Origin: Desertimonas flava
Lineage (GTDB): Bacteria; Actinomycetota; Acidimicrobiia; Acidimicrobiales; Ilumatobacteraceae
NCBI RefSeq assembly: GCF_003426815.1
Contig: NZ_QKYK01000001.1
Location: 62,001 to 126,000, forward strand
Length of the DNA stretch: 64,000 nucleotides
Direction: 5' to 3'
This document shows positions 1,738 through 22,245 of this stretch, in pieces. Position numbers and translations under genes: made by a program. Within the stretch, counting starts at the first letter, position 1, and every line of letters begins with the position of its first letter. Below the pieces are notes generated by a model, which worked only from the letters and a program-made list of their open reading frames with translations, was not told where the DNA came from and did no database searches.

Positions 1738-2943
1738 ATGAGCATCGCGCACGAACTGCTGGGTCCTGACTTCAAGATCATCGACTCCGACACCCACTTC
1801 ACGGAGCCGGCCGATCTGTGGACGAAGCGGGCACCAGCCAAGTACAAGGACCGCGTCCCGCTGGTGCGGCCCAACGCCGACGGCCTCAACAAGTGGTACG
1901 TCGACGGCCTCGAGCTGATGAACGCCGGCGCCGGCAGCATCATCGACAAGGACGGCGTCAAGACGAAGTTCTGGAACATCGACATGATGAACCACATCAC
2001 CGTCGACGAGGCGCACGCCGGTTCCTGGGACGTGTCCGCCCGCCTCGAGGTGATGGACGAGCAGGGTGTGTGGGCTCACATCGTCTACCCGAACGTCGCC
2101 GGCTTCGGCGCCGGCCGGCTGCTGAGGCTGGAGGATCGCGACCTCGCCTACGCGATCGTGCAGATCTACAACGACGCGGTCGCCGAGTGGCAGGCCGAGA
2201 GCAACGACCGCCTGCTGCCACAGATGCTCGTGCCGTTCTGGGACATGGACCACACGCTGGCCGAGATCCAGCGCTGCCACGACATGGGACTGCGCGGCAT
2301 GGCGATGAGCGGCGAACCCTTCAACGGCGGCCTGCCCGACCTCGGAAATCGCCATTGGGACCCGATGTACGAGCTGTGCAGCGAGCTCGACTTCCCGATC
2401 AACATCCACATCGGCTCGGGTGACAGCGGCGGCTCCGACCAGTTCCGCTCGATGTACGGCGCCCGCACGTGGGCGTCGCAGGACGCCCACCGGGCCTACG
2501 TCCTCATGTGCGTGCAGCTCGAGCTCACCAACTCGAACTTCCTCTCGAACCTCGTCACGAGCGACATCCTCGTCCGCTACCCGAAGCTCAAGTTCGTGTC
2601 GGTGGAGAGCGGCATCGGCTGGATCCCCTACGTCCTCGAGCGCACCGACTACCAGCTCCAGGAGGCACTGCCCGACGACCCGGCGCTGCAACGGCCCAGC
2701 GCGCAGGAGCTGTTCCGCCAGAGTGTCTACGCCACCTTCTGGTTCGAAGACTCCGCGCCGCGCCACTCGATCGCCGACGTCGGATTCGACAACGTGATGT
2801 TCGAGACCGACTTCCCACACCCGACGTGCCTCTACCCGAACCCCGTCGACTACGCGCTCGAGCGACTGAAGGAGCACGATGTCGAAGACATCAAGAAGGT
2901 GATGGGCGGCAACGCGGCGAAGCTCTACAAGGTCGCCGTCTGA
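1738..2943 (+). CDS. Amidohydrolase family 2 (TIM-barrel metal-dependent hydrolase)
   Basis: This 401-residue cytoplasmic protein has the amidohydrolase-2 layout: an N-terminal DSDTHFTEPADLW segment, where the family usually has a DxHxH-type metal site but the second His is Phe here; a central NIHIGSG strand with His; and a C-terminal FETDFPHPTCLYP segment with the Asp and His expected at the last barrel strand. Related proteins act as decarboxylases or hydrolases on aromatic or cyclic substrates; the substrate here cannot be read from sequence. GGAGAG lies 11 bases before the ATG. It is alone on this strand and converges on ktrA with 13 bases between stops. Confidence 0.85.
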   Translation: MSIAHELLGPDFKIIDSDTHFTEPADLWTKRAPAKYKDRVPLVRPNADGLNKWYVDGLELMNAGAGSIIDKDGVKTKFWNIDMMNHITVDEAHAGSWDVSARLEVMDEQGVWAHIVYPNVAGFGAGRLLRLEDRDLAYAIVQIYNDAVAEWQAESNDRLLPQMLVPFWDMDHTLAEIQRCHDMGLRGMAMSGEPFNGGLPDLGNRHWDPMYELCSELDFPINIHIGSGDSGGSDQFRSMYGARTWASQDAHRAYVLMCVQLELTNSNFLSNLVTSDILVRYPKLKFVSVESGIGWIPYVLERTDYQLQEALPDDPALQRPSAQELFRQSVYATFWFEDSAPRHSIADVGFDNVMFETDFPHPTCLYPNPVDYALERLKEHDVEDIKKVMGGNAAKLYKVAV

Positions 2944-2956
2944 CGGCGCCGTCGAG

Positions 2957-3670
2957 CTACGCGCGCCTCGCGAACGCCTCCGCGGCCGCCGTCTCGCCGG
3001 CCACCACGAGCAGGTCACCCCGGGCCAGAACCGTGTCGACCGTTGCGTAGGTGAACGACCCACCCGCAGGTTTCACGCACACCACGGTCACCCCGAACCG
3101 TTCGCGGACCGCTGAGTCGGCCAGTGTGCGCCCCACGAGCTCTTCCGGTACCGCCGTCTCCACCAGGGCGAACCGCTCGTCGAGCTGGAACCAGTCGAGG
3201 ATCCGCCCACCGATCATGTGGGCGACCTGGTGGCCCATGTCGTGCTCGGGGTAGACCACGTGGTGGGCGCCGACGCGCTCGAGGATCCGACCGTGCTGGC
3301 GGCTCACCGCCTTCGCCCACACCGACCGCACGCCGACTTCGTCGAGGGCTGCGGTGGCGAGGATGCTCGCCTCGAGGTCCGAACCCACGGCGACGATGGC
3401 ATGGGGCATCTCGTCGATCCCCAACTGGACGAGTGCCGCGGTGTTCGTGACATCGGCCTGGACGACGTGCGTGATGGTGGGGGAGTAGTACTGGACCGTC
3501 GACTCGCTGACGTCGACCCCGAGCACCTGGTATCCCAAGCGCACGAGCTCGGAGGCGAGCGCACCACCGAATCGGCCCAGACCGAGCACGGCGATCGACT
3601 CGCCCGGTTCTGCGCGCGCAGGGCCGCCGTGCTGGCCGAGGGTCCACTGGCGCCGCGACTTGTCACCCAA
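2957..3670 (-). CDS. ktrA: Potassium uptake regulatory protein KtrA/TrkA-type (RCK)
   Basis: This cytoplasmic gating subunit of a Ktr/Trk potassium system has a Rossmann RCK-N domain with the dinucleotide motif AVLGLGRFGGALA and an acidic residue at the end of beta-2 (LGVDVSE), followed by an RCK-C domain (VETAVPEELVGRTL). Its size, about 237 residues, is normal for KtrA. I chose a TTG start at 3670 because GGAGGAG lies 10 bases upstream and it overlaps the ktrB stop by a few bases, as in a coupled operon; a GTG at 3709 would add 13 residues. It is transcribed after ktrB. It presumably binds NAD(H) or ATP and opens KtrB. Confidence 0.9.
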   Translation of the reverse strand: MGDKSRRQWTLGQHGGPARAEPGESIAVLGLGRFGGALASELVRLGYQVLGVDVSESTVQYYSPTITHVVQADVTNTAALVQLGIDEMPHAIVAVGSDLEASILATAALDEVGVRSVWAKAVSRQHGRILERVGAHHVVYPEHDMGHQVAHMIGGRILDWFQLDERFALVETAVPEELVGRTLADSAVRERFGVTVVCVKPAGGSFTYATVDTVLARGDLLVVAGETAAAEAFARRA

Positions 3671-5018
3671 TGATGATCCGCTCCTCCGGGTGCCGATACA
3701 GACGTTCACGCGCTCGCAGAACGAGCGCGGCGAACAGGGTAGGTGGCCCGACCCGTCCGATGAACATGAGCCCCGTCACGAGGAGCTGGCCCGGGGTCGA
3801 CAGCAGGGGCGTGATACCCGTCGACAGTCCGACCGTGCCGAGCGCCGACACGGACTCGAAGACGACGTCGGACAGCTCGTGCGGCGTGAGCGCCAGCAGG
3901 ATCATCGACGACACCACGACACCTCCGACCGCCATCAGTGCAACGGTCAACGCCTGCCGTTGCACATCGGTCGGAACCCGTCGACGGAACACCTCGACAT
4001 CCCGCTCACCGCGGACCTCGGCCCAGATGACCCAGCCGAGGAGGGCGAACGTCGTCACCTTGACGCCGCCCGCTGTGGACCCGCTGCCACCTCCGATGAA
4101 CATCAAGATCATCGTCAGCAGATGTGACGTGTCGTTGAGCGACGCGGCATCCACGGAGTTGAAGCCGGCGGTGCGTGTCGTCACGCTGTGGAACAGGCCG
4201 TTGACCAGGGAATCACGTGTCGACAGCGGTCCGAGCGTGGAAGCGTTGGTCCATTCGAACGCGGCGAAGAGCAACCATCCCGACACGACGAGGACAACGG
4301 TCGTCGATACCGTCAACTTCGCGTGGAGATCCCACTGGCGGATGCGGCGACGACCGGACGCGATCTGGTGCCAGACGGGAAACCCCAATCCGCCGATCAC
4401 GATCGCCGCGGCGAGCGCGAGCAGGAGGATCGGGTCGTCCTGGAACCGCATCATGTTGTCGGGGAACAGCGCAAATCCCGCGTTGTTGAAGGCCGACACC
4501 GAGTGGAACACGGCGAGATAGGCGGCGCGCCCCAATGACTCGTCGTGACCGATCCAGAACCGCTGAAGGAGGACGGCGGCCACGCCCAGTTCGACACACG
4601 CCGTCATCGTGACGACGGCCTTCACCAACGAGGTGACGTCGCCGAGCCGCAGCGTTCCGGTCTGCGCGGCGGCGACGACGCGCTGACGAATCCCCAGGCG
4701 GCGACTCAACACGATGACGAGCAGCGACGACAGCGTCATGATGCCGAGTCCGCCGACTTGGATCAGACCGAGGATCACGGCTTGTCCGAAGCCGCTCCAG
4801 TGGCCCTCGGTGTCGATGACCGACAGCCCCGTCACGCACGTCGCCGACATCGCGGTGAACATCGCCGTGGTCAGGGGCGCTCGTCCTGAGCTCTGCGTCG
4901 AGATCGGCAATGACAGCAGCGCGGTACCCAACATGCTCGTGACAAAGAACGTCACGACGATGTACTGGGCGGGATGGCGGAGGGCGATCCGCCCGCCGCC
5001 CAACCATCGCGCGCTCAT
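3663..5018 (-). CDS. ktrB: Potassium transporter KtrB/TrkH family
   Basis: This 451-residue polytopic membrane protein of the Trk/Ktr/HKT superfamily has four pseudo-repeated pore loops with the expected filter glycines: SATCVTGLS, FNNAGFA, TTRTAGFNS and SALGTVGLSTG. These are the defining TxxGx positions for K+ selectivity. The long stretch IGGGSGSTAGGVKVTTF matches the gating-loop region. The start at MSARWLGG is preferred because the upstream in-frame extension to 5198 is Arg/Pro-rich and lacks membrane character. It is first in a two-gene operon with ktrA, overlapping it. Function is K+ uptake, possibly Na+-dependent as in known Ktr systems. Confidence 0.93.
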   Translation of the reverse strand: MSARWLGGGRIALRHPAQYIVVTFFVTSMLGTALLSLPISTQSSGRAPLTTAMFTAMSATCVTGLSVIDTEGHWSGFGQAVILGLIQVGGLGIMTLSSLLVIVLSRRLGIRQRVVAAAQTGTLRLGDVTSLVKAVVTMTACVELGVAAVLLQRFWIGHDESLGRAAYLAVFHSVSAFNNAGFALFPDNMMRFQDDPILLLALAAAIVIGGLGFPVWHQIASGRRRIRQWDLHAKLTVSTTVVLVVSGWLLFAAFEWTNASTLGPLSTRDSLVNGLFHSVTTRTAGFNSVDAASLNDTSHLLTMILMFIGGGSGSTAGGVKVTTFALLGWVIWAEVRGERDVEVFRRRVPTDVQRQALTVALMAVGGVVVSSMILLALTPHELSDVVFESVSALGTVGLSTGITPLLSTPGQLLVTGLMFIGRVGPPTLFAALVLRARERLYRHPEERIIIG

Positions 5019-5260
5019 CGTGTCGACTGCTCGTCGATGCGCCGGGCCGACGAGTCCCGTTCCTCGAAGCCACGAATCGGGAACGCCGCCATTCCGACAG
5101 CTTGGCTCACACACACCCGGCCGGGGCAGTTCCGAGCGCCGCCACGGCCATGCTGCTGGCCACCGCCCGGTCGCCGCCGACGCCCCCGCGTCCCACAACT
5201 GGTCGAAGGAGCTCGCCTCGTCCCGCGACCGCCAATCGGCCGTGGCACTAGATTGGACCC

Positions 5261-6358
5261 GTGCAACGAGGTCCGTGGCACCACATCGACGTGGTCACCA
5301 CTGACGACCTGCTGTCCCTGGACGGGGTCGCGGGGCCGTGCGTGTCGCTGTATTTGCCGACGCACCGGTACGGCCCTGACGTCCGGCAGGGACCCGTGGT
5401 CCTGCGCAACCAGCTGGCTGAGGTCCGCCGCGGCCTCGAAGGCTCGGGTTGGCGCCGCCCCGACATCGACGACTTCCTCGAGCCGCTCAACGGGCTCGTG
5501 AGCCAGGACGAGTTCTGGCAGTACCAGGGCGCGGGGCTGGCGTTGTTCCGCGCTCCCGACCTCGACGCCACCCATCGCCTGCCCCTCGACGTCGACGAGC
5601 ACGTCGACATCGGGGACTCGTTTCGAGTCGCTCCGCTCGTGCCGCTCGTGTCGGGGGACGGAGCGTTCTTCATCCTCGCTCTGAGCCAGAACGAGGTCCG
5701 ACTCTTCGAGGCGACGCGACAGCGGATCGGCGAGGTCGAACTGACTGGCGTTCCGAGGTCGATGGACGAGGCGCTCGCCCATGAGGACCCCGAACGCCAG
5801 CTCCAGTTCCGGTCGGCGGGGCAGGGCGCGGTGCAGTTCCACGGCCACGGTGCTGGCGACGAGGTGGACAAGGCCAGGCTCGAGCGCTACATCCGGGCGG
5901 TGGCCACCGGCATCGACGAACGCCTGCGTGGGTCTGGGGACCGGCCGCTCGTGCTGGCCTCCGTCGCGTACTACCTGCCGATCTTCAAGGCCGCCAGCAG
6001 CTACCGGGGGATCGTCGACGACTTGGTGGAGGGCAGCCCAGATGGACGACCCGTCGAGGACCTGCATCGCGACGCGTGGCAACTGGTCGAGTCCACGTTC
6101 ACCGGTGAGCGCGACCGCCTGGTCGCCCGCTATCGCGTGGCGGCTGGGACCGGCCTGACGTCGGCTGACCTGGACGAGATCGTCGACCGTGCCACCGAAG
6201 GACGAGTCGAGACGCTCTTCGTGGCACCCGACGCCCACGACGACCGTCGCGTCGACCAGGCGATCCTCGCCACGTTGCGCACCAACGGTCGGCTCTGGAA
6301 CACGACAGAGTCGCTCGACCGGACCGCCGGCCCGCTTGCCGCCCTCCTCCGTTACTGA
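5261..6358 (+). CDS. Bacterial eRF1-like (baeRF) domain protein
   Basis: This 365-residue soluble protein has the baeRF-family opening LDGVAGPCVSLYLPTHR with a following GP-x-Q stretch, a middle domain (AFFILALSQNEVRLFEA) and a C-terminal Rossmann-like segment ending RVETLFVA and a VDQAILATLRTNG helix, as in archaeal/eukaryotic eRF1 domains 2-3. Such proteins are thought to act on stalled or hibernating ribosomes; I see no GGQ motif, so classical peptide release is unlikely. A second, more distant relative lies at 8198-9208. The start at 5261 (GTG) is the first in the frame, after a 242-bp gap from divergent ktrB in which I see no other gene. Confidence 0.8.
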   Translation: MQRGPWHHIDVVTTDDLLSLDGVAGPCVSLYLPTHRYGPDVRQGPVVLRNQLAEVRRGLEGSGWRRPDIDDFLEPLNGLVSQDEFWQYQGAGLALFRAPDLDATHRLPLDVDEHVDIGDSFRVAPLVPLVSGDGAFFILALSQNEVRLFEATRQRIGEVELTGVPRSMDEALAHEDPERQLQFRSAGQGAVQFHGHGAGDEVDKARLERYIRAVATGIDERLRGSGDRPLVLASVAYYLPIFKAASSYRGIVDDLVEGSPDGRPVEDLHRDAWQLVESTFTGERDRLVARYRVAAGTGLTSADLDEIVDRATEGRVETLFVAPDAHDDRRVDQAILATLRTNGRLWNTTESLDRTAGPLAALLRY

Positions 6359-6594
6359 CCGCCGCGACGATCCCGACGGCAGCGGTTCGTCGTGAACCGC
6401 GAGCCGCGACCCTGGCCAAGCGTCCCGGCGTCGCCGCCCTGCAGGTACCCACCCACGACGTCGACGCCGTCGTCGAACGCGTCCGAACTGCCGGTGGCGA
6501 CCTCGTCAACGAGCCGGAACCGAGGTCGAAGGCGTCGCTCACGCTGGTGCATAGCGTCGGAGGTCCGTGCGGTCCGTGCGACGCTCGCCGTGCG
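6359..6594 (+). other. Gene-poor gap with a possible decayed VOC-like fragment
   Basis: No start, stop and ribosome site combine into a credible gene here. One plus-strand frame reads VPTHDVDAVVERVRTAGGD followed by LVNEPEPR, which resembles the DVDA...AGG part of glyoxalase/VOC proteins, and then loses similarity. I read it as a gene remnant at best. Confidence 0.25.
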
Positions 6595-6762
6595 TCAACA
6601 GTCCTCGCGGACGTTGTCGCTGCTGAACATGAGAGCGAACATCATCACCGTCGAGGTGGCGGTCATGGCCCCGAAGCGCACGTAGTGCCGTCGTTCCGTC
6701 CTCTTGGCGTCGTCTCGTCCAGTCTCGTGGAGATCGCCGCCGTTGGCGGTGTCGGTCGCCAT
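6595..6762 (-). CDS. Small membrane protein, apparently truncated, co-transcribed with the copper-storage gene
   Basis: This 55-residue ORF starts 4 bases after the copper-storage gene stop on the same strand. The N-terminal half is charged (GRDDAKRTERRHYVRFGAM), followed by a hydrophobic stretch TATSTVMMFALMF and an abrupt stop at SSDNVREDC. Full-length relatives that I recall continue with further membrane segments after a HYVRFxxM start, so this looks like a 5-prime remnant cut off in its first membrane helix. No function assigned. Confidence 0.45.
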   Translation of the reverse strand: MATDTANGGDLHETGRDDAKRTERRHYVRFGAMTATSTVMMFALMFSSDNVREDC

Positions 6763-6766
6763 GTCA

Positions 6767-7165
6767 CTATGCGCTGAGGAGCTGGTCGCAGGCGTGCTCG
6801 CAGCGCCGGCAGGCGTCGGCACACACGCGACAGTGTTCGTGCATGTCGGCGTGACGGTCGCACTCTTCGGCGCAGCGTCGGCAGGCATCCCGGCACGCGG
6901 TGAGCACCGCGCGAGTGAGCACGGCGTCGTAGCCGGCTTGGCGGGACAGCACCCGGGCGGTGGTGTCGCAGATGTCGGCACAGTTGAGATCGCTGGTGAT
7001 GCACCGGCGCAGGTCGGCCACCATCTCTTCACCGAGACACGCGTCGGCGCAGGCGGTGCAGGCCTGGGTGCAGTCGAGACAGGCGTCGATGCACGCCACG
7101 AGCGGGTCCGGGTCGAAGCCGAGCTGGCTTGGTGACGTGCGGAGCATCTGAGAGGCAACGGACAT
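6767..7165 (-). CDS. Four-helix-bundle copper-storage protein (Csp/DUF326-like)
   Basis: This 132-residue protein contains 18 cysteines, nearly all spaced three or four apart on predicted helices (ACIDACLDCTQACTACADAC near residue 24; CRDACRRCAEECDRHAD; CADACRRCEHAC). That is the pattern of Csp proteins, whose bundle core is lined with Cys and stores many Cu(I) ions. There is no Tat or Sec signal, so it should be the cytosolic Csp3-like form. AAGGAG sits 5 bases before the ATG, fixing the start. A 21-bp inverted repeat of CsoR type lies 23 bases upstream, implying copper induction. Confidence 0.88.
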   Translation of the reverse strand: MSVASQMLRTSPSQLGFDPDPLVACIDACLDCTQACTACADACLGEEMVADLRRCITSDLNCADICDTTARVLSRQAGYDAVLTRAVLTACRDACRRCAEECDRHADMHEHCRVCADACRRCEHACDQLLSA

Positions 7166-11916: not shown

Positions 11917-12041
11917 CCGAACATTCAACCGGATGCGTTCCCGCAGGCCACGCAGGCTGACCCATCGCCCGCCGGACTCCGGACGGTGACGCACGTCGAC
12001 TTTGGCCGGGCGGGGCGAGGGTGCCTTACGATGGAGCCGCT

Positions 12042-12992
12042 ATGGCCGTCGGCAGCCGCCCACTCGTCCCCTCGCGCCTCGCTCCAGGTGGACTCTCGCA
12101 GCGCGCTCACGGCGCGCGCCAGCAGCCGAAGTCGGTCGTCGGTGCGTACATCGCACTCACCAAGCCGCGGATCATCGAGCTCCTTCTCATCACCACGATC
12201 CCCACCATGGTGCTGGCTGCCGGCGAATGGCCGTCGCTGTGGCTGATGCTCGTGACGCTCGTCGGCGGCACGCTCGCCGCCGGCGGCGCCAATGCCTTCA
12301 ACATGTACATCGATCGCGACATCGACGCGATGATGAAGCGCACCCAGGACCGCCCCCTGGTCACCGGCGTCATCCAGCCTCGCCAGGCGCTCGTGTTCGC
12401 CGCCGCCCTGGAAGTCGTCGCCTTCGCCGTGCTCTGGGCCGGGGCCAACCTCCTGTCGGCCGTGCTCGCCCTGTCGGCGATGCTCTTCTACGTCGGTGTG
12501 TACACCATCTGGCTCAAGCGCTCGAGCCGCCACAACATCGTCATCGGCGGCGCCGCCGGCGCCGTGCCGGTCCTCGTCGGATGGGCGGCGGTCACCGACT
12601 CGCTCGGTTGGGCGCCGGTCGTACTTTTCATTGCGATGTTCCTCTGGACGCCGCCCCACTTCTGGGCGCTGGCCATCCGCTATGCCGACGACTACCGGGC
12701 CGCCGACGTCCCGATGCTGCCGGCCGTCGTGCCCCTCGAAGAGGCCGCACGGAAGATGATCGGCTACACCGTCGCCCTCGTGGCGAGCACGCTGGTGCTC
12801 GCTCCCGTGGCCGATCTCGGCTGGATCTACACCGCGACGGCGATCGTCCTTGGGGTCGGCTTCCTGGGCGGCACGTATGCCCTCGCCAAGCGGCCGAGCC
12901 CGGCCGGGAGCATGCGGGTGTTCGCCTACAGCATCACCTACGTGACGCTTCTGTTCGCCGCCATCACCGCCGACGTGCTGATCCTGGCATGA
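12042..12992 (+). CDS. ctaB: Protoheme IX farnesyltransferase (heme O synthase)
   Basis: This UbiA-family membrane enzyme of 316 residues converts heme B to heme O on the way to heme A for the oxidase encoded next. Both prenyl-diphosphate Asp motifs are present: NAFNMYIDRDIDAMMKRTQDR near residue 90 and DDYRAADVPMLP in the second half, with ALTKPRIIELLL at the start of the first helix. The ATG at 12042 is preferred over a GTG at 12021 because GGAG sits 5 bases before it. It is first gene of the cytochrome oxidase cluster. Confidence 0.95.
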   Translation: MAVGSRPLVPSRLAPGGLSQRAHGARQQPKSVVGAYIALTKPRIIELLLITTIPTMVLAAGEWPSLWLMLVTLVGGTLAAGGANAFNMYIDRDIDAMMKRTQDRPLVTGVIQPRQALVFAAALEVVAFAVLWAGANLLSAVLALSAMLFYVGVYTIWLKRSSRHNIVIGGAAGAVPVLVGWAAVTDSLGWAPVVLFIAMFLWTPPHFWALAIRYADDYRAADVPMLPAVVPLEEAARKMIGYTVALVASTLVLAPVADLGWIYTATAIVLGVGFLGGTYALAKRPSPAGSMRVFAYSITYVTLLFAAITADVLILA

Positions 12993-13134: not shown

Positions 13135-14814
13135 ATGAGCACTCTCGACCCCACCCTTCATCACGTCGCCGACGACACCGGCTCCACCTCCGGAGCGGTC
13201 ACCTCGTCGATCGTCGCCGCGCTCACATCGAGCGATCACAAGGTGATCGGTCGCCTCCTCGTGACCGCCTCGCTCCTCGCCACGCTCGTGACCGGTGTCC
13301 TCGGGGCGCTGCTCGGGGCCGAGCGAATCAGCGGAGACGGCGATCTCCTGCCCGATCGCATCGTTCCCGAGCTGTTCGCCGGGTACCGCGTCGGTCTGGT
13401 GCTCGGCGGTGTCGTCCCGCTCCTGCTCGGTCTCGCCGTCTTCGCCGTGCCGCTCCAACTCGGTGCTCGTAGCCTCGCCTTCCCTCGACTCGCGGCCGCC
13501 GGCTTCTGGACGTGGCTCGGCGGCGTCGTGCTGCTCATCATCTCGCTGTTCAACAACGGCGGCCCAGAAGGCGGCGACGCCGACATGGTCCGCCTCTACA
13601 TCGGCGCGCTGGTCCTCGTCACTCTCGGCCTGATCGCCGTCGCCGTGCCGGTTGCCACGTCGGTCCTCACCACGCGGGCCCCCGGCATGAAGCTGCACCG
13701 CGTCCCGCCGTTCGCCTGGGCGTCGCTGATCCATGCGCTCGGCGTCGTGCTCGTCCTGCCGATCCTCGTCGGCGTCCTCGCCTACCTCTACATGGACGAT
13801 CGCTACGCCACGGCCGAGACGTCGCTGTTCGGCGGTGGCGCCGGCACCAACGACTGGGGGGCGTGGCTGCTCACCGGGCCGTCGCTGGCCCTCTTCGCCG
13901 TGCCCGCCGTCGGTCTGCTCGCCGAGTTCCTCCCGGTCGTCTTCCGCAAGCGCCTGCCGATGCGCGGCGTTCTGCTCGCCGGCATCTCCCTCGTCGGCGT
14001 GGGCATCCTCGCCGGCGTCACCCAGCAGCAGAAGTTCCGGCTGCCGGGCACGGGCGGTCCGGTCACCGGTCGCAACTGGCTGACCCGCCTCGGTTACCTG
14101 CTCAACTGGGCGATGCTGTCGCTGCTGCCGCTGCTCGGCATCGTCGTCGTCCTCGCCGTCGGAGCCCTGCTCGCCAAGCCGCCGAGCAAGGCCGAGCGCC
14201 GCGCCGGCGCCGCGGTCACCCCGAAGCCGATCGCCCCCTTCGTCTTCGCCCTGCTGGGCGTCGGTCTCGTCGCCATCGGCATCCTCGGCGCGGCCGCCAG
14301 CGGCATCGAGGATCTCGGGCTCGACGGCACCGTGTTCGAGGAGGGCGCCACCGTGGCGCTCGTGTACGGGGCCGTGCTCGCCGGCCTCGGAGGGATCGTC
14401 TACTGGTTCCCGAAGTGGACCGGCGCCAAGGTGCCCGACGCTCCGGCGTACGGCCTGGCCCTGCTCGGAGCGCTCGGTGCGGTCCTCGCCTCCGTGCCCT
14501 ATCTGATCGCCGGCTTCGCCGACCAGCCGGCCCGCGCGGTCGTGTTCGACTACGAGGGCCCGAGCGCCCTCTGGAACGTCGCCGTCACCGTCGGCCACGC
14601 CGCCTTCGCCGTCACCGTCCTCGCCGTACTCGGGCTCCTCCTGAAGCCCGCCGGCAGCGCCGCCACCGCCGGTGACGATCCCTGGGATGCCCAGACGCTC
14701 GAGTGGGCCACCACATCGCCGGCGCCCGCCGGCAACTTCGCCACCACGCCCGCCGTTCGTTCGCCCGAGCCCCTGACCGACCTCAAGATCACGACGACAG
14801 AGGTCGCACCGTGA
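13135..14814 (+). CDS. Cytochrome oxidase subunit I paralogue lacking all heme and copper ligands
   Basis: This 559-residue, roughly 12-helix membrane protein aligns by landmarks to the true CtaD encoded downstream: VPLQLGARSLAFPRL matches LPLQIGARDVAFPRI, AEFLPVVFRKRLP matches SEVLPVFAKKPLF, and YGAVLAGLGGIVYWFPK matches FGGAVLGFFAGFYYWWPK. At each ligand position of CtaD (H97, H275, Y279, H324, H325, H410, H412) this protein has Tyr84, Gly248, Ala252, Gln, Gln, Gly404 and Thr406. It cannot bind heme a, heme a3 or CuB in the known way. It even shares the C-terminal DPWDAQTLEWATTSP tail with CtaD (DPWDARTLEWMTTSP). It lies between ctaB and ctaC. Role unknown: perhaps structural, assembly or regulatory. 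Confidence 0.85.
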   Translation: MSTLDPTLHHVADDTGSTSGAVTSSIVAALTSSDHKVIGRLLVTASLLATLVTGVLGALLGAERISGDGDLLPDRIVPELFAGYRVGLVLGGVVPLLLGLAVFAVPLQLGARSLAFPRLAAAGFWTWLGGVVLLIISLFNNGGPEGGDADMVRLYIGALVLVTLGLIAVAVPVATSVLTTRAPGMKLHRVPPFAWASLIHALGVVLVLPILVGVLAYLYMDDRYATAETSLFGGGAGTNDWGAWLLTGPSLALFAVPAVGLLAEFLPVVFRKRLPMRGVLLAGISLVGVGILAGVTQQQKFRLPGTGGPVTGRNWLTRLGYLLNWAMLSLLPLLGIVVVLAVGALLAKPPSKAERRAGAAVTPKPIAPFVFALLGVGLVAIGILGAAASGIEDLGLDGTVFEEGATVALVYGAVLAGLGGIVYWFPKWTGAKVPDAPAYGLALLGALGAVLASVPYLIAGFADQPARAVVFDYEGPSALWNVAVTVGHAAFAVTVLAVLGLLLKPAGSAATAGDDPWDAQTLEWATTSPAPAGNFATTPAVRSPEPLTDLKITTTEVAP

Positions 14815-14938: not shown

Positions 14939-15520
14939 GTGACGTACGCACTCCCCGCCGCCCCGGCCCCGCCGCCCCGCCGGCAGGTGTTCGTGGGCAC
15001 CGCCATCGCGTCGCTGGGCGCCATCATGCTCATGGGCGGCATGCTCGCCGTCTTCATCCGCAAGCGTGAAGAGGTGATGGACGCCGGAGAAGCGTGGCTT
15101 CCCCAGGGCGTCGAGATCCCCGGCGTGCCCGCCAACGTGATGCTCATCGGCGTGCTCGCCATTCCCCTGTTCGCACAGTGGGCCGTCTACGCCGCCCGGC
15201 GCCACGACCGCATCCACGTCGGCCTCGCCCTCGGCCTCGTCGGCGTCATCGGCCTCGCTGCCATCAACGCCCAGGCGTACATCTACAACAGGATGGACAT
15301 GCCGGTGGCCGACTCCGGCTATGCCCCGATGTTCTATGCCATCACCGGGGCGATGGTCGCCCTGCTCATCATCGGCGTCGTGTTCACCGGCGTCACGGCG
15401 TTCCGCCTGCTCGGCGGACGCCAGTCCGACACGGAGCTCGTGTCGGCCCATGCCCTCTACTGGTACGTCATCGCCGGGGTCGTCTCGGCGGTGTGGCTGA
15501 TCGTGTTCGTCACCAAATGA
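14939..15520 (+). CDS. Divergent cytochrome oxidase subunit III-like membrane protein
   Basis: This 193-residue protein has about five hydrophobic helices. The C-terminal part, FYAITGAMVALLIIGVVF then ALYWYVIAGVVSAVWLIVF, follows the subunit III pattern (FYTLTGFHGAHVTIGILM then GLYWHFVDIIWIIIF in the CtaE encoded at 19953), but the GFHGAHV histidines and the WHFVD His/Asp are missing. It is therefore a degenerate CtaE paralogue placed directly after the ligand-less subunit I paralogue. The GTG start has GGAG 8-9 bases upstream. It overlaps the next gene by ATGA, so translation is coupled. Confidence 0.7.
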   Translation: MTYALPAAPAPPPRRQVFVGTAIASLGAIMLMGGMLAVFIRKREEVMDAGEAWLPQGVEIPGVPANVMLIGVLAIPLFAQWAVYAARRHDRIHVGLALGLVGVIGLAAINAQAYIYNRMDMPVADSGYAPMFYAITGAMVALLIIGVVFTGVTAFRLLGGRQSDTELVSAHALYWYVIAGVVSAVWLIVFVTK

Positions 15521-16689
15521 TTCCCACCGGGTCGCGCCTCCTCATCGGCGCCACGCTCCTCTCCATCGTCGCGGCCATCATCTACGGCACCACCGTCAGC
15601 GGCTCCCTCGGCACGACCGGCCTCATCAGCCTGTCCGTCGCCTTCGGAGTGATCACGGCGATCAACCTGTTCACCCGCGACGCCGACGTCTCGGTGAAGG
15701 ATCCCACCGCCGCCACCGAATCGGCGGCGGCGCACCATGCGCCCCGACCCAGCATCTGGCCCATCGTCGCGGGTGGCGGCGGCGTGCTGCTCGTCCTCGG
15801 CCTGATCACCTACCCGGTCGTCTTCATCTTCGGGGTCATCGCCCTGCTCGCCGCCACGATCGAGTGGATGATCGAGGCCTGGAGCGAGCGCGCCTCGGGC
15901 GACGTCGGGTACAACGCCGGCGTACGCGAGCGCATCGCCCACCCCGCCGAGATGCCGGTGCTCGCCCTGCTCGCCACGGGTGTCATCGTCTACTCGTTCA
16001 GCCGCATCATGCTGTTCCTGTCCAAGACCGGTGGCCCCATCGTGTTCGGTGTGCTCGCCGCACTGGTCCTCGCCGTCGGCGCTGCGGTCGCCTATCGCCC
16101 GCAGCTGCGCAACGCCACCGTGCAGGCCGTGGCGGCCGTCGCCGTACTCGGCCTCGTCGCCGGCGGCGTGGCGGCCGCACTGGCCGGACCCCGCGACATC
16201 GAAACCCACGAGACCACCGGGGCGCTCGCCACGCACGGCGAATGCGAGACCCCCGACGAGACCCATGCCGACAACAACGCCTCACAGACCATCGGGGCCA
16301 AGGCCAACGTCCACGGCGAGATCATCCTGCGCAGCGACGGCACGCTCGTCGCTCGCACCATCGGCATCCCGGGTGACCACTCCGCGATCACCATCACGCG
16401 GAGCAACCCGACCAACATCATCTTCCGCAACGAGAGCGACGACGACCGCCGCCTCGTGCTCCTGCTCGGCGAGGCCACCGCGGCCGAGGGTGCCGACAGC
16501 GGCGCTGACGCAGGGGAATCGACCGATGCCGAACACGCCGCACGCGAGCAGCTCTGCACCGCGCTCGCCGAGGCCGACGGCAGCCAGCTGCTGACGTTCG
16601 AGATCGGTGCGGCGTCGTCCGAGACGAACCACTTCGAGTTCGTCGTGCCCGGGGTCGACAATCAGTCTGTTGAGGTGATCGTTCCGTGA
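15517..16689 (+). CDS. CtaF-like membrane protein with extra helices and a C-terminal cupredoxin-like domain
   Basis: This 390-residue protein starts like the actinobacterial oxidase subunit IV (RLLIGATLLSIVAAIIYG, then SIWPIVAGGGGVLLVLGLI and LAATIEWMIEAW). It continues with three more helices and an extracytoplasmic domain of about 150 residues, with strands such as IILRSDGTLVARTIGI, ITITRSNPTNIIFRNE and HFEFVVPGVDNQSVEVIVP. That domain resembles a cupredoxin fold but lacks an obvious Cys-His-Met copper site. It overlaps genes on both sides (ATGA and GTGA), tying it tightly to the oxidase operon. Possibly an assembly or accessory subunit; the fusion is unusual. Confidence 0.6.
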   Translation: MIPTGSRLLIGATLLSIVAAIIYGTTVSGSLGTTGLISLSVAFGVITAINLFTRDADVSVKDPTAATESAAAHHAPRPSIWPIVAGGGGVLLVLGLITYPVVFIFGVIALLAATIEWMIEAWSERASGDVGYNAGVRERIAHPAEMPVLALLATGVIVYSFSRIMLFLSKTGGPIVFGVLAALVLAVGAAVAYRPQLRNATVQAVAAVAVLGLVAGGVAAALAGPRDIETHETTGALATHGECETPDETHADNNASQTIGAKANVHGEIILRSDGTLVARTIGIPGDHSAITITRSNPTNIIFRNESDDDRRLVLLLGEATAAEGADSGADAGESTDAEHAAREQLCTALAEADGSQLLTFEIGAASSETNHFEFVVPGVDNQSVEVIVP

Positions 16690-17936
16690 GTCTGTGGAGC
16701 CAACGCCCGGCTCGTCCCGCCGAATCGAAGGCGCGCCTGTCGACAGGCCGGCGGGCACTGCCGTTCGCCGCGCTCGGTCTGGTCATCCTGCTGGCCTCCT
16801 GTGCCAAGGATGCGCCGCAGGACACCTGGCAACCCGAAGGCGACAACGCCCAGAAGATCCACAACCTGCAGTGGCCGGTGTTCGCCATCGCCGGGCTGGT
16901 GCTGGTCATCGTCGCCCTGGCCGTGATGTGGTGCGTGTTCCGCTACCGCGACCGCGGCCAGGCCATTCCCGAGCAGACGCACGGCAAGCCGGCCCTCGAG
17001 ATCGGTCTCACGATCCTGCCCGCCCTCATCCTGATCGGTGTCGCCGTCCCCACGGTCGGAACCTTGATGGCGCTCAACAAGACCGACGACACCGCGTGCG
17101 TCGTCAACGTCACGGGCCAGCAGTGGTGGTGGGAGATCGACTACCCCGCGGGCGACTGCGGCGGCGTGGCGATCGACCAGGCCATCGTCACCAGCGGCCA
17201 GCTCGTCATCCCCGAAGACACCAACGTGCTGCTGCGCGGCACGAGTCGTGATGTCATCCACAGCTTCTGGGTCCCGAAGATCAACGGCAAGCGCGACATG
17301 GTCCCTGGCCGCATCCACACCCTCCGCCTGCACGCCGATCACCCCGGCATCTACGCCGGTCAGTGCGCCGAGTTCTGCGGTCTCTCCCACGCCAACATGC
17401 GCATGGAGATCGTCTCGCTCTCACAAGCCGACTTCGCCACGTGGGTGGCCAACCAGCTCGAGCCGGTCGGCGAGATCGAAGGCGGTGAGCTCGCCGAGGA
17501 AGGCGAGGCCCTGTTCATCTCCAACTGCTCGCGCTGCCACCAGGTCAACGGCCAGGTCGGCGCCGACGGCCAGCCCGTCATCGCCGCCCCCGAGGACAAC
17601 GTGTACTCGGGAGCTGCGCCGAACCTCACGCATCTGATGTCTCGCAACACCTTCGCCGGAGCGACGTGGGACCTCCTCACCCCCGAGTGCCGCGAGGCCG
17701 TCTGGGAGGCCGAGCCCGAGGACTTCGGAGCGGCGTACCTCGAGGGCGTCACGGCAGAATGTCTCAACGAGGTCGACCTGCGCGAGTGGCTGCGCAACGC
17801 CCCCGAGAAGAAGCCGATGTTCACCGAGCAGGACGAACTGGCCGAGACCAACGGCCTGCCCCGTGGCATGCCCAACCTCAACCTTTCCGAGGAACAGATC
17901 GACGCCCTGATCGCGTACCTGCTGGAGCTGAACTGA
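16686..17936 (+). CDS. ctaC: Cytochrome c oxidase subunit II with fused cytochrome c (caa3-type)
   Basis: This 416-residue subunit II carries electrons through CuA to subunit I. A lipobox (LLASC, Cys39) suggests a lipid-anchored N-terminus; two membrane helices follow. CuA ligands are all visible: His192, Cys227, Cys231, His235 and Met238 in QCAEFCGLSHANM, plus the aromatic QQWWWEIDY strand. After residue 265 a cytochrome c domain begins with CSRCH (Cys281, Cys284, His285), so the enzyme is caa3-like with its own c-heme donor. A possible distal Met ligand lies near GMPNLNLS or further upstream in the domain. It starts at a GTG overlapping the preceding stop. Confidence 0.95.
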   Translation: MSLWSQRPARPAESKARLSTGRRALPFAALGLVILLASCAKDAPQDTWQPEGDNAQKIHNLQWPVFAIAGLVLVIVALAVMWCVFRYRDRGQAIPEQTHGKPALEIGLTILPALILIGVAVPTVGTLMALNKTDDTACVVNVTGQQWWWEIDYPAGDCGGVAIDQAIVTSGQLVIPEDTNVLLRGTSRDVIHSFWVPKINGKRDMVPGRIHTLRLHADHPGIYAGQCAEFCGLSHANMRMEIVSLSQADFATWVANQLEPVGEIEGGELAEEGEALFISNCSRCHQVNGQVGADGQPVIAAPEDNVYSGAAPNLTHLMSRNTFAGATWDLLTPECREAVWEAEPEDFGAAYLEGVTAECLNEVDLREWLRNAPEKKPMFTEQDELAETNGLPRGMPNLNLSEEQIDALIAYLLELN

Positions 17937-17937
17937 C

Positions 17938-19956
17938 ATGGCGATCATCGAACGACCCGTCCCCGCAACCGTGGGTGCGCCCGTGGTGGCGCCTCCGGTC
18001 ACTCCGTCGCGTACCTTCGGAGCCTTCAAGCGTCCCGTTGCCGCCACCGGCTGGCGCTCGTGGGTGTTCACGGTCGACCACAAGAAGCTCGGCATCATGT
18101 ACGGCGCCGCCGCCATCGTCTTCTTCGTGGTCGGCGGCATCGAGGCGCTGCTGATCAGGGCCCAGCTGGCCGGCCCCGACGGCACGGTCCTGTCGGCCGA
18201 CCTGTACAACCAGATGTTCACCATGCACGCCACGTCCATGGTGTTCCTCTTCGCCATGCCGATGGCGTCGGCGTTCGCCAACTACATGCTGCCGCTGCAG
18301 ATCGGCGCCCGTGACGTCGCCTTCCCGCGCATCAACGCCTTCGGCTTCTGGTGCTTCCTCTTCGGCGCCATCTTCGTCAACCTGTCCTGGTTCCTCGGCG
18401 GCGCCGCCGACGGTGGCTGGTTCATGTACGCGCCGAACTCGAGCGTGGCGTTCTCCCCGAGCAACGGCATCGACTTCTGGACGCTCGGCCTGCAGATCAC
18501 CGGCATCGCCTCGCTCACCGGCGCCGTCAACCTGATCGTCACCGTGCTCAACATGCGCACCAAGGGCATGTCGCTGATGCGGATGCCGGTGTTCACGTGG
18601 ATGGTGCTGGTGATCCAGTTCCTCCTCCTGTTCGCCATGCCGGTCATCACCGTCGCCCTGTTCCTGCTGATGTTCCAGCGCAGCTTCGACGCCACGTTCT
18701 TCACCGTCGAGGCCGGTGCTGACCCGCTGCTCTGGCAGCACCTCTTCTGGATCTTTGGCCACCCCGAGGTGTACATCCTCGTGTTGCCGTCGTTCGGCAT
18801 CATCTCCGAGGTCCTGCCCGTCTTCGCCAAGAAGCCGCTGTTCGGCTACCCGTTCGTGGTCTTCTCGGGCGCGGCCATCGGCTTCGTCGGCTGGGGTGTG
18901 TGGGCCCACCACATGTTCGCCTCCGGCCTCGGTCCCGTCAGCGTCGCCGTGTTCTCGGTGGCCACGATGGCGATCGCCATCCCCACCGGCGTCAAGATCG
19001 TCAACTGGACGCTCACCATGTGGGGCGGCAAGTTGAAGTTCACGACGGCGATGCTCTTCGCCGTCGGCATGATCGTCGAGTTCACCATCGGCGGTCTTTC
19101 CGGCGTCACGCACTCCGTGGCCCCATCGGACACGCAGCAGACCGACACCTACTACATCGTCGCCCACTTCCACTACGTGCTGTTCGGCGGCGCCGTGCTC
19201 GGGTTCTTCGCCGGCTTCTACTACTGGTGGCCGAAGATCTTCGGCAAGTGCCTCGGCGAGAAGCTCGGCAAGTGGAACTTCTGGCTGATGATCATCGGCA
19301 TGAACCTGACGTTTGGCCCGATGCACATCATCGGCCTCCAGGGCCAGCCCCGCCGCATGTACGTCTGGACCGACTACCGGGCCGGCGAAGGCTTCTTCAA
19401 CCTCGGCTTCTGGAACCAGGTCTCGTCGGTCGGAGCGTTCATCCTCGCCCTCGGCGTGCTGATGTTCCTCATCAACGTCGTGCAGACCACCCGCAAGGGA
19501 GCCCCGGCGCCGCTCGACCCGTGGGACGCCCGCACCCTGGAGTGGATGACCACGTCGCCGCCCAAGGAGCACAACTTCGACTCGCTGCCCGAGGTGCACG
19601 CACTCGACGAGTTCTTCCATCGCAAGTACGCCGACGTGGGCGAAGGCAATCATCACGACCTGCAGAAGGTGGCGACGGCCGAGGACATCCTCGCCGAGCA
19701 AGAGGCCAACGCCGACCACCACATCCACCTGCCGTCGCCGTCCTACTGGCCGCTCGTCCTCGCCTTCATGCTGCCGTTCGTCGGCTTCGGCATCATCTAC
19801 AACCGCCTCATCGCCATCGTCGCCGCCGCCCTCATCGTGGTGTCGATGTTCGGATGGGCGCTCGAGCCGTCGGTCGCCGACGAGAGCGACTACGACCCCG
19901 AAGAGCCCGACGCCGGGCCCGGAACCGACCTGGCCGTCGTGGGAGGCGCGACGTGA
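17938..19956 (+). CDS. ctaD: Cytochrome c oxidase subunit I, C-terminally extended
   Basis: This is the catalytic subunit of the aa3/caa3 oxidase, 672 residues. All ligands are present: His97 and His412 for the low-spin heme, His410 for heme a3, and His275, His324 and His325 for CuB with the cross-linking Tyr279 in HPEVY. After a canonical body of about 555 residues there is a tail with HNFDSLPEVH and two extra hydrophobic segments (YWPLVLAFMLPFVGFGIIY, LIAIVAAALIVVSMFGWAL) that resemble subunit IV, so part of CtaF appears fused here. It follows ctaC by one base and overlaps ctaE by GTGA. Confidence 0.96.
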   Translation: MAIIERPVPATVGAPVVAPPVTPSRTFGAFKRPVAATGWRSWVFTVDHKKLGIMYGAAAIVFFVVGGIEALLIRAQLAGPDGTVLSADLYNQMFTMHATSMVFLFAMPMASAFANYMLPLQIGARDVAFPRINAFGFWCFLFGAIFVNLSWFLGGAADGGWFMYAPNSSVAFSPSNGIDFWTLGLQITGIASLTGAVNLIVTVLNMRTKGMSLMRMPVFTWMVLVIQFLLLFAMPVITVALFLLMFQRSFDATFFTVEAGADPLLWQHLFWIFGHPEVYILVLPSFGIISEVLPVFAKKPLFGYPFVVFSGAAIGFVGWGVWAHHMFASGLGPVSVAVFSVATMAIAIPTGVKIVNWTLTMWGGKLKFTTAMLFAVGMIVEFTIGGLSGVTHSVAPSDTQQTDTYYIVAHFHYVLFGGAVLGFFAGFYYWWPKIFGKCLGEKLGKWNFWLMIIGMNLTFGPMHIIGLQGQPRRMYVWTDYRAGEGFFNLGFWNQVSSVGAFILALGVLMFLINVVQTTRKGAPAPLDPWDARTLEWMTTSPPKEHNFDSLPEVHALDEFFHRKYADVGEGNHHDLQKVATAEDILAEQEANADHHIHLPSPSYWPLVLAFMLPFVGFGIIYNRLIAIVAAALIVVSMFGWALEPSVADESDYDPEEPDAGPGTDLAVVGGAT

Positions 19957-20651
19957 CCGACACGAGCACGACCGAGAACGAGACCGACGTGTCCACCGAC
20001 ATCGACGACGCCACCGCCCAGGCCGCTACGCCGGTGCCGGTGGTCGACCCCGCCGGCCACGGCGAGCACCACGGCTCGCCCGACGAGCACGGCACCACCG
20101 GCCTCTCCAACAACAAGATGGGCATGTGGCTGTTCCTGGGTTCCGAGTGCCTGCTGTTCGGCGGCCTGATCTCCACCTACATGCTGTACCGGGGCCGGCA
20201 CTCCGGGAACCTCGGCCCCGACCAGATCTACGACATCCCGTTCACGTCGGTGTCGAGCTTCGTCCTGCTGATGTCCTCGCTCACCATGGTGCTCGCCGTA
20301 TCGGCCGCCAAGCGCCACGACGACCGCAACACCCGGGTGTGGCTGGTGATCACCGCCCTGCTCGGCGCCACGTTCGTCGGCGGTCAGGTGTACGAGTTCA
20401 CGACGTTCTACAACGAGGGCCTGGGCTTCACCACGAGCCTGTTCTCGTCGAGCTTCTACACGCTCACCGGCTTCCACGGTGCCCACGTCACGATCGGCAT
20501 CCTGATGCTGCTCGCCCTCACGCTGATCCACAAGCGCAAGCGGGTCACCGGCGACCAGGCCGAGGTGGTCGAGCTGGTCGGCCTGTACTGGCACTTCGTC
20601 GACATCATCTGGATCATCATCTTCACCCTCGTCTACCTGATCCCGGCCTGA
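19953..20651 (+). CDS. ctaE: Cytochrome c oxidase subunit III
   Basis: This 232-residue membrane subunit supports proton uptake and stability of subunit I. Landmarks are NKMGMWLFLGSECLLFGGL (helix 1-2 region with the conserved Glu), FTLTGFHGAHV-type helix (FYTLTGFHGAHVTIGILM) and the terminal LYWHFVDIIWIIIFTLVYL. The N-terminal 50 residues are a soluble acidic, His-containing tail. The GTG start at 19953 overlaps the ctaD stop. Compare the degenerate paralogue at 14939, which lacks the His and Asp residues. Confidence 0.95.
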   Translation: MTDTSTTENETDVSTDIDDATAQAATPVPVVDPAGHGEHHGSPDEHGTTGLSNNKMGMWLFLGSECLLFGGLISTYMLYRGRHSGNLGPDQIYDIPFTSVSSFVLLMSSLTMVLAVSAAKRHDDRNTRVWLVITALLGATFVGGQVYEFTTFYNEGLGFTTSLFSSSFYTLTGFHGAHVTIGILMLLALTLIHKRKRVTGDQAEVVELVGLYWHFVDIIWIIIFTLVYLIPA

Positions 20652-20652
20652 T

Positions 20653-20985
20653 ATGACTGACGTCGTGACCGACCACGCCCCCGCCGCCAGTGACGGCGCC
20701 GACGCCCACCACGGGCCGAGCGATCTCACGTTCATCAAGACGGCCGGGGTCCTCGCAGTGCTGACCGCCATCGAGGTGTGGCTCAGCTACTCGGGCCTCA
20801 GCGCGAGCATCTTCGTGCCGATCCTGCTCGTCGTGATGGTGCTCAAGTTCTTCACCGTCGTGCTCGTGTTCATGCACATCAAGTACGACGCGAAGATCTT
20901 CGGCCGGCTCTTCTACATGGGGCTCTTCCTCGCGATCTTCGTGTACGTCGCTGCGCTGGCGACGTTCCACTTCTTCAGCAGCTGA
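20653..20985 (+). CDS. ctaF: Cytochrome c oxidase subunit IV (CyoD/CtaF-type)
   Basis: This 110-residue protein has three hydrophobic helices: GVLAVLTAIEVWLSYSGL, IFVPILLVVMVLKFFTVVLV and FYMGLFLAIFVYVAALATF, with the subunit IV marker FMHIKYDAKIFGRLF between helices 2 and 3. It starts one base after the ctaE stop and is the last gene of the oxidase operon before a hairpin terminator. Confidence 0.9.
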   Translation: MTDVVTDHAPAASDGADAHHGPSDLTFIKTAGVLAVLTAIEVWLSYSGLSASIFVPILLVVMVLKFFTVVLVFMHIKYDAKIFGRLFYMGLFLAIFVYVAALATFHFFSS

Positions 20986-21300: not shown

Positions 21301-21348
21301 GGGGGGTGGGCTGGCTGGTTGGGGGGTGGCGGGGGCAGACTGGGGGGC
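21301..21348 (+). promoter_or_regulatory. G-quadruplex-prone leader immediately before ctaG
   Basis: At least five runs of three to six G lie within 48 bases on the coding strand, ending one base before the GTG start. They could fold into a G-quadruplex in mRNA and cover the ribosome site. The fold is a prediction. Confidence 0.4.
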
Positions 21349-22245
21349 GTGCCGAATCCATGGCGGTTTGAGCTCCATCTCGAGGTCATCGTCCTCGTCA
21401 CCGCGCTGACGGTCGCCTACACGTACCTCGTGCGAGTCATCGGACCGGCCGCCGTGAAGGTGGGCGAGTCGCCGATCACCCGCAAGAACGTCTACGCCTT
21501 CGTCGGCGCCATGAGCATGCTCTTCGCCGCCAGCTGGTGGCCCCTCCACGACATCGGTGAGCAGTACCTCTACTCGGCCCACATGCTCCAGCACATGATG
21601 CTGTCGTACTTCATGCCGCCGCTGATCTGGCTGGCGACGCCGGAGTGGCTGATGCGCACCATCATCGGCCACGGGCGCTTCTACCACGTGGTCCGTTGGC
21701 TCACCCATCCGGTGGTCGCCGGCGTCACGTTCAACGTCGCCGTGATGGTGATCCACATCCCCGGAGTGGTGACGGCGTCGACCGAGAGCGGCCTCACCCA
21801 CTACGCCCTCCACGTGATGGTCGTGACCACGTCGCTCTTGATGTGGATGCCGGTCTGCGGACCGATCCCCGAGTTCCGCATCGGCACGGCGCCCAAGATG
21901 ATCTACCTGTTCCTGCAGTCGGTGGTGCCCACCGTGCCGGCCGGCTGGCTGACGTTCGCCGACGACCCCGTGTACCACAGCTACGGCAACCAGCCGCTCC
22001 GCCTCTGGGGCGTCTCGGCCGTCGCCGACCAGCAGCTGGCCGGGGCGATCATGAAGACGGGCGGCTCGATCTTCCTCTGGACGATCATCATCCGCCTCTG
22101 GTTCAAGCGCTTCGCCAAGTCGTACGCGCAGGAGCACAACTACCGGCGGACCCCCGTCACCGTTCCGGAGGCGGACGCCGGCACGCTCACCTACGAGGAC
22201 GTCGAGCGCGAGTTCGCCGCCACACCGGCGGTGCGCGAGCCCTGA
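21349..22245 (+). CDS. ctaG: Cytochrome c oxidase assembly factor CtaG (caa3-type)
   Basis: This 298-residue membrane protein of the caa3_CtaG family has about seven helices. His/Met-rich loop motifs typical of the family are visible: HDIGEQYLYSAHMLQHMML, HYALHVMVVTTSLLMWMPV and TVPAGWLTFAD. These are thought to help copper delivery to CuB. The GTG at 21349 follows a G-rich stretch directly and starts the VPNPWRFELH reading that leads into the first helix. It is separated from the oxidase operon by a terminator-like hairpin and repeats, so it may have its own promoter. Confidence 0.9.
   Translation: MPNPWRFELHLEVIVLVTALTVAYTYLVRVIGPAAVKVGESPITRKNVYAFVGAMSMLFAASWWPLHDIGEQYLYSAHMLQHMMLSYFMPPLIWLATPEWLMRTIIGHGRFYHVVRWLTHPVVAGVTFNVAVMVIHIPGVVTASTESGLTHYALHVMVVTTSLLMWMPVCGPIPEFRIGTAPKMIYLFLQSVVPTVPAGWLTFADDPVYHSYGNQPLRLWGVSAVADQQLAGAIMKTGGSIFLWTIIIRLWFKRFAKSYAQEHNYRRTPVTVPEADAGTLTYEDVEREFAATPAVREP

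Follow-up and report, generated by a model that had tools for sequence, protein, structure and literature searches.

Organization of the locus

The window analysed here, a stretch of 64,000 nucleotides from Desertimonas flava, carries on its forward strand the genes of a cytochrome caa3 oxidase together with a module of three further genes. Downstream of a ctaB-like gene coding for a heme O synthase of the UbiA family (12021-12992), the module opens with a subunit I-like protein of 559 residues without metal ligands (13135-14814; hereafter I-like), continues with a diverged subunit III-like protein of 193 residues (14939-15520; III-like), whose GTG start follows an AAGGAG sequence, and closes with a protein of 390 residues (15517-16689; IV-like) made up of membrane helices and a cupredoxin-fold domain lacking copper ligands. 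The operon proceeds with ctaC (16686-17936; subunit II with a cytochrome c domain), ctaD (17938-19956; a canonical subunit I in which the six His are present), ctaE (19953-20651; canonical subunit III), a gene for a small subunit IV (COX4_pro, 20653-20985) and one for a ctaG-like copper assembly factor (21319-22245).

The module sits between ctaB and ctaC, in the sequence ctaB, I-like, III-like, IV-like, ctaC, ctaD, ctaE, and this arrangement was identical in the complete loci mapped across the order Acidimicrobiales. In the window the III-like and IV-like genes overlap by ATGA, and the IV-like gene and ctaC by the four bases GTGA. Among loci of the family, 48 of 67 share the latter 4-bp overlap, a figure that the open-frame test makes an upper bound; the former recurred in none of 73 loci. 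Upstream of the cluster, a DUF2017 gene (PF09438, 11055-11994, reverse strand) adjoins a ClpS-like open reading frame, the latter recognized by eye. The genome codes for a second canonical CtaD (contig 56, 60083-61996; locus L001), and no second I-like gene was found in it.

A subunit I homolog without metal ligands

The I-like protein matches PF00115 (110.9 bits, E 8.9e-32) and shares 27% identity with CtaD from the same operon (E 2e-41); with a profile of 64 family members, the best solved relatives were mycobacterial and other CtaD proteins (E 3.3e-66). Its TIGR02891 score is 181.5, for a cut-off of 670.75. A structural comparison with subunit I, as proposed in the initial annotation, was run on an AlphaFold2 model (pLDDT 84.1, pTM 0.87), and this predicted structure retains the 12-helix fold of subunit I, its best alignment with the Mycobacterium smegmatis protein (6adq_F) giving a VIA Z of 36.4 and an rmsd of 3.1 over 471 residues. 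The E-values, the predicted fold and the conservation of the protein together exclude a chance resemblance.

Ligand positions were compared in an alignment of 83 members from the family, 34 from other families and 28 CtaD sequences, family sequences having been dropped beforehand if shorter than 480 residues, low in similarity score or identical over their last 420 residues. In the window protein, the TM2 ligand of heme a is replaced by Tyr (His97 to Tyr84, codon at 13384-13386), the TM6 ligand of CuB by Gly (His275 to Gly248) and the cross-linked Tyr by Ala (Tyr279 to Ala252; codons 248 to 252 at 13876-13890), the two TM7 ligands of CuB by Gln (His324/325 to Gln297/Gln298, 14023-14028), and the TM10 ligands of heme a3 and heme a by Ala (His410 to Ala405) and Val (His412 to Val407; codons 405 to 407 at 14347-14355). 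The replacing residues listed in the initial annotation stand for Tyr, Gly, Ala and Gln-Gln and do not for TM10, where Gly and Thr had been read and the alignment places Ala and Val, one residue along; the TM10 stretch is free of His in either register. Its central claim, that of a subunit I paralog from which all six His and the Tyr are gone, is upheld by sequence and fold, and the CtaD-like DPWDAxTLEW tail that it described is present as DPWDAQTLEW at residues 515-524 (DDPWDAQTLEW, 14674-14706). The proton pathways are likewise altered, in both the D-pathway (Asp126 to Ser113; Glu277 to Ser250) and the K-pathway (Lys353 to Val339), and the first heme-propionate Arg is replaced as well (Arg472 to Ala466).

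Two objections had been anticipated, namely that ligand His might lie in shifted positions and that homologs might reveal a recent pseudogene. The first is excluded for the window protein, since its six His in all (residues 9, 10, 35, 188, 200 and 488) include none near a ligand column; the whole protein of 559 residues contains no Cys. The second fails because the full set of CuB His is found in none of the 117 aligned I-like sequences. Within the family, a His lies at most four columns from the TM7 site in 44 of 83 sequences and from the TM10 site in none, and no sequence keeps both His of the low-spin heme pair (TM2 and TM10) or the proximal TM10 His of heme a3; all six are kept in each of the 28 CtaD proteins.

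The substitutions are unevenly distributed among sites. Gln occupies the TM6 CuB column in 65 of the 83 family sequences (the window itself has Gly) and the TM7 column of Gln297 in 78, so that the exchange of His for Gln at CuB positions is, on this alignment, non-random; it was counted in favour of a partnership with caa3, discussed below. In the family, a hydrogen-bonded Gln pair may take the place of the metal cross-link. The TM2 column varies among Tyr, Phe, Leu, Gln and Ala, and the heme a3 column among Val, Thr, Ala, Ser and Glu. CtaD has 173 columns with an identity of 95% or more, and in I-like proteins identity remains at 80% or above in 35 of them, including DHK, RxPGM, WxPKxxG and part of the C-terminal tail; with just these 35 kept, the surfaces of CtaD in general have largely not been kept.

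The subunit III-like and cupredoxin-bearing proteins

The III-like protein belongs to the subunit III family by its PF00510 score (33.3 bits, cut-off 23.8), and scores well under the NCBIfam cut-off for CtaE. At the level of sequence comparison, these results show that the I-like and III-like proteins descend from A-family oxidase subunits. The membrane helices of the IV-like protein bear a weak, below cut-off similarity to PF12270 (subunit IV), and its C-terminal domain (residues about 262-390, 16300-16686) has a Greek-key beta fold related to cupredoxins (Foldseek E 1.4e-4 to 2aan; VIA Z 11.4 and rmsd 2.2 over 94 residues to 4hcf_B) from which the His-Cys-His-Met copper ligands are absent in the window. 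A type-1 copper motif adjoins 6 of the 34 I-like sequences from other families and none of the 83 from the family, a IV-like protein having been found for 109 of those 117. The cupredoxin domain has been dropped in most other families; in the window's family it persists without copper. As read from the alignments, the loss of every redox-metal ligand from the module is shown at the level of residues. Cys 243 and Cys 347 of the IV-like protein, invariant in 48 of 48 family sequences, perhaps form a disulfide.

A protein of 200-370 residues with membrane helices and a cupredoxin domain, homologous to the second half of the IV-like protein, is common in other classes of Actinomycetota. At loci of the class outside the order, a gene of this type adjoins ctaG in most of those examined.

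Distribution and linkage to caa3

In a set of 61 genomes, made up of the one containing the window, 36 more from its family and 24 from other families of its order, I-like genes occur in 34 of the 37 family genomes and in 15 of the 24 from other families; one of the three family genomes without them, G020, has neither a subunit I match nor the module. When 84,980 species genomes were scanned, 107 stretches were confirmed, and the best 80 loci of these were examined: 77 carry an I-like gene or a fragment of one, and three are Chloroflexota CtaD (L152-L154). The latter are ordinary CtaD proteins with all six His, and a close tie to Chloroflexota was consequently rejected.

Full-length IV-like proteins (above 160 bits) were counted from alignment A4, an iterated profile that drifted into CtaD being left out. 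They were found in 62 of 296 genomes of the class, every one in Acidimicrobiales. All 60 genomes of the order with a caa3 CtaD match (E at most 1e-240) carry one, on the same contig and strand as CtaD in 58, at a median gap of 1322 bp, and on separate contigs in the other two. A IV-like protein without a CtaD match occurs in G228 and G265, and in G228 the CtaD gene runs off the contig or the retrieved stretch. Outside the order, none of the 24 genomes with CtaD at this threshold has a full-length IV-like protein, and among 396 genomes of the phylum, matches to the full protein or its N-terminal half are restricted to the order (20 genomes), the half with membrane helices and cupredoxin matching alone elsewhere. 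Searches found no IV-like protein in plasmids, and none of the viral contigs matched the I-like protein of L046. These data, together with the loss of ligands, support the early proposal of a non-catalytic subunit I paralog residing in an oxidase operon, here the ctaB-to-ctaE locus. What that proposal did not cover is that the two following genes are likewise derived from or linked to the oxidase and devoid of metal sites, that the module spans the order, and that basal relatives retain heme His together with a cupredoxin that has its copper motif. Other orders of Acidimicrobiia have related caa3 oxidases without the module, so that the module is not a general requirement for caa3, an observation counting against a partnership. 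Alternative complex III was also considered as a partner and rejected, the genome having no NrfD/ActC match and containing cytochrome b.

Selective constraints

Substitution rates across related genomes, also suggested at the outset, were estimated from the 40 closest of 127 pairs, limited to dS 0.1-1; the pairs are not independent, having species in common, and the reading frames include a little in-frame upstream sequence. For the I-like gene, dN/dS ranged from 0.017 to 0.13 with a median of 0.062 (39 pairs), and medians were 0.045 for CtaD (22 pairs) and 0.105 for the IV-like gene (31 pairs); in the 22 shared pairs they were 0.063 for I-like and 0.045 for CtaD. These ratios show strong purifying selection on the coding sequences of the module, with I-like near the level of CtaD, and the view that a gene intact over 559 residues is kept by selection holds well, given also the homologs throughout the family. 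The rate of evolution of the I-like protein is several times that of CtaD (terminal branches of 0.65 and 0.10 for the window pair), which counts against a partnership with caa3.

Descent and stepwise loss of cofactors

In a tree of 92 subunit I sequences, obtained by a quick search with SH-aLRT support only and in which the outgroup does not fall on one side of a branch, 52 I-like sequences form one clade apart from CtaD (SH-aLRT 100), although long branches could pull them together. On this tree the I-like proteins are an old clade within Acidimicrobiales. Its early branches are L175, then L046, L048, L054 and L069, then L042, and the CtaD proteins of these basal genomes, where included, branch in matching order, which fits vertical descent.

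The basal sequences retain part of the ligand set. In L046, L048, L054, L069 and L042, the TM2 His and the HxH of TM10 are kept and the CuB His are gone; in L175 the TM2 His and the second of the TM10 pair remain. The IV-like proteins of all six have a type-1 copper motif, and basal relatives of the window's IV-like protein pass PF13473. The basal I-like protein with its copper-motif IV-like neighbour is thus predicted to be an oxidase homolog without CuB and still bearing heme. The bis-His pair is gone in 27 of 34 sequences from other families, and L035 keeps it without a cupredoxin. All six copper-keeping IV-like proteins are paired with a bis-His I-like protein, a coincidence that may reflect one or two events in the tree and hence provides no independent statistic. 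Since no I-like protein has a full CuB set and basal relatives keep the heme a His and type-1 copper, the order of loss read from these sequences is stepwise, CuB first and then the hemes and the cupredoxin copper.

At the L175 locus, about 4.7 kb separate the IV-like gene from ctaC, a gap counting against a partnership with caa3; by its reading frames, the stretch 2086-7054 of this locus resembles a metal ABC transporter (binding protein, ATPase and permease) with a Fur-like frame.

A second family in other orders of the class

In G070, from another order of Acidimicrobiia, a reading frame of 715 residues directly upstream of ctaC codes for a cbb3-like subunit I lacking the ligand His, fused to a cupredoxin resembling that of IV-like proteins whose copper motif is intact. 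It has matches at 1e-25 or better in 65 of the 296 class genomes, all 65 outside the order. In 21 aligned sequences (G070 and 20 loci), ligand His is kept in no segment of the ligand region. Such CcoN-like genes lie on the reverse strand at L155 (8093-10237) and L199 (6367-8445), the latter having lost all six His when aligned to CcoN. In several members of the set a FixO-type cytochrome c domain is fused to the subunit I part, with a cytochrome c gene coming next. Further loci of this kind are L200, L202, L210 and L214.

Proposed role and alternative scenarios

The module shares an operon with caa3, accompanies this type of caa3 throughout the order, and keeps the subunit I fold and tail without metals. 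On these grounds, we propose that the three proteins are a cofactor-free pseudo-oxidase partner of caa3, a physical association to which linkage and co-occurrence give, in our judgement, an even chance. A duplicated oxidase core would have become redox-silent, its three products would form a membrane subcomplex made together with caa3, and this subcomplex would dock, as an accessory scaffold, to caa3 or to the site where caa3 meets the bc complex, the loop motifs and C-terminal tail common to I-like and CtaD serving the contacts. An ancestor with heme a and type-1 copper would have passed electrons without reducing O2; electron transfer would then have been dropped and the structural role retained. 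The complete scenario, in which the module is a permanent partner of active caa3 in Acidimicrobiales, as half of a half-dead heterodimer or as a supercomplex adaptor, derived via the surviving copper-less, heme-bearing intermediate and accompanied by a separate cbb3-like family in other orders, receives a probability of roughly 0.35. It suggests a respiratory component working without metals.

Alternatively, the module could remain outside the mature oxidase as an assembly factor, holding apo-CtaD and apo-CtaC during insertion of heme A and copper, with the ancestral cupredoxin delivering copper. Its location between ctaB and ctaC, with ctaG after the operon, the cupredoxin nature of the IV-like relatives that have copper ligands and the proximity of such genes to ctaG in the majority of loci sampled from the other orders of Acidimicrobiia speak for this role. 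However, copper ligands are kept in none of the 83 family sequences, so that the IV-like protein no longer delivers copper there, and a complete set of I-, III- and IV-like proteins exceeds what a chaperone needs; we consider this explanation unlikely. An independent membrane function, as a channel, carrier or sensor merely sharing the operon, would accord with the fast evolution of I-like proteins and with the loss of proton-path residues, which leaves the active-site cavity free for other use, yet the strict linkage to and co-occurrence with caa3 and the retained CtaD-like tail speak against it, and we regard it as unlikely. That heme or copper is still bound through non-canonical ligands and performs redox chemistry is highly improbable: ligation by Tyr, Gln or Met is conceivable in principle, and basal relatives keep heme a His and type-1 copper ligands, but the window protein has neither Cys nor any His near a site, residues at the ligand columns change freely within the family, and the first propionate Arg is gone. 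A decaying pseudogene cluster, for which fast evolution and lost catalytic residues might be invoked, has a negligible probability and was rejected given the frames open across the family, the median dN/dS of 0.062 and the order-wide retention.

Comparison with known systems

In PMC3413370 the six His are taken as the signature of the heme-copper superfamily, and NOD (nitric oxide dismutase) is described as an unusual quinol-NOR homolog in which one coordinating His is replaced by Asn and the others are kept. Like the I-like protein, NOD is a superfamily member with an altered ligand set (PMC3413370), whereas I-like proteins of the window's type have lost all six His. No report of an oxidase subunit I without ligands was found in a search that included the accessible parts of PMC3413370, PMC9145763 and PMC8239418 and took in few subscription journals, and none of a dead heme-copper oxidase core serving as a structural subunit was found in the literature searched.

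A clade in which fold and selection persist without ligands separates the role of the fold from that of the metals, and the stepwise series, CuB first and then hemes together with cupredoxin copper, constitutes a natural experiment. The module is present in a named isolate, Ilumatobacter nonamiensis YM16-303 (locus L080), which makes association with caa3 directly testable.

Compared with CtaD/CoxA, the A-family subunit I (TIGR02891, PF00115), the I-like protein is homologous over its full length, with the same fold and tail motif, but lacks the His sextet, the Tyr cross-link and the D- or K-path residues. Similarly, the C-terminal domain of the IV-like protein has the fold of type-1 copper cupredoxins (auracyanin, Cupredoxin_1), unlike which it lacks, in the window, the His-Cys-His-Met site. 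The core proteins of mitochondrial complex III are catalytically dead homologs kept as structural subunits, and this use of a dead enzyme as a structural subunit offers a parallel to the role proposed here for the I-like protein.
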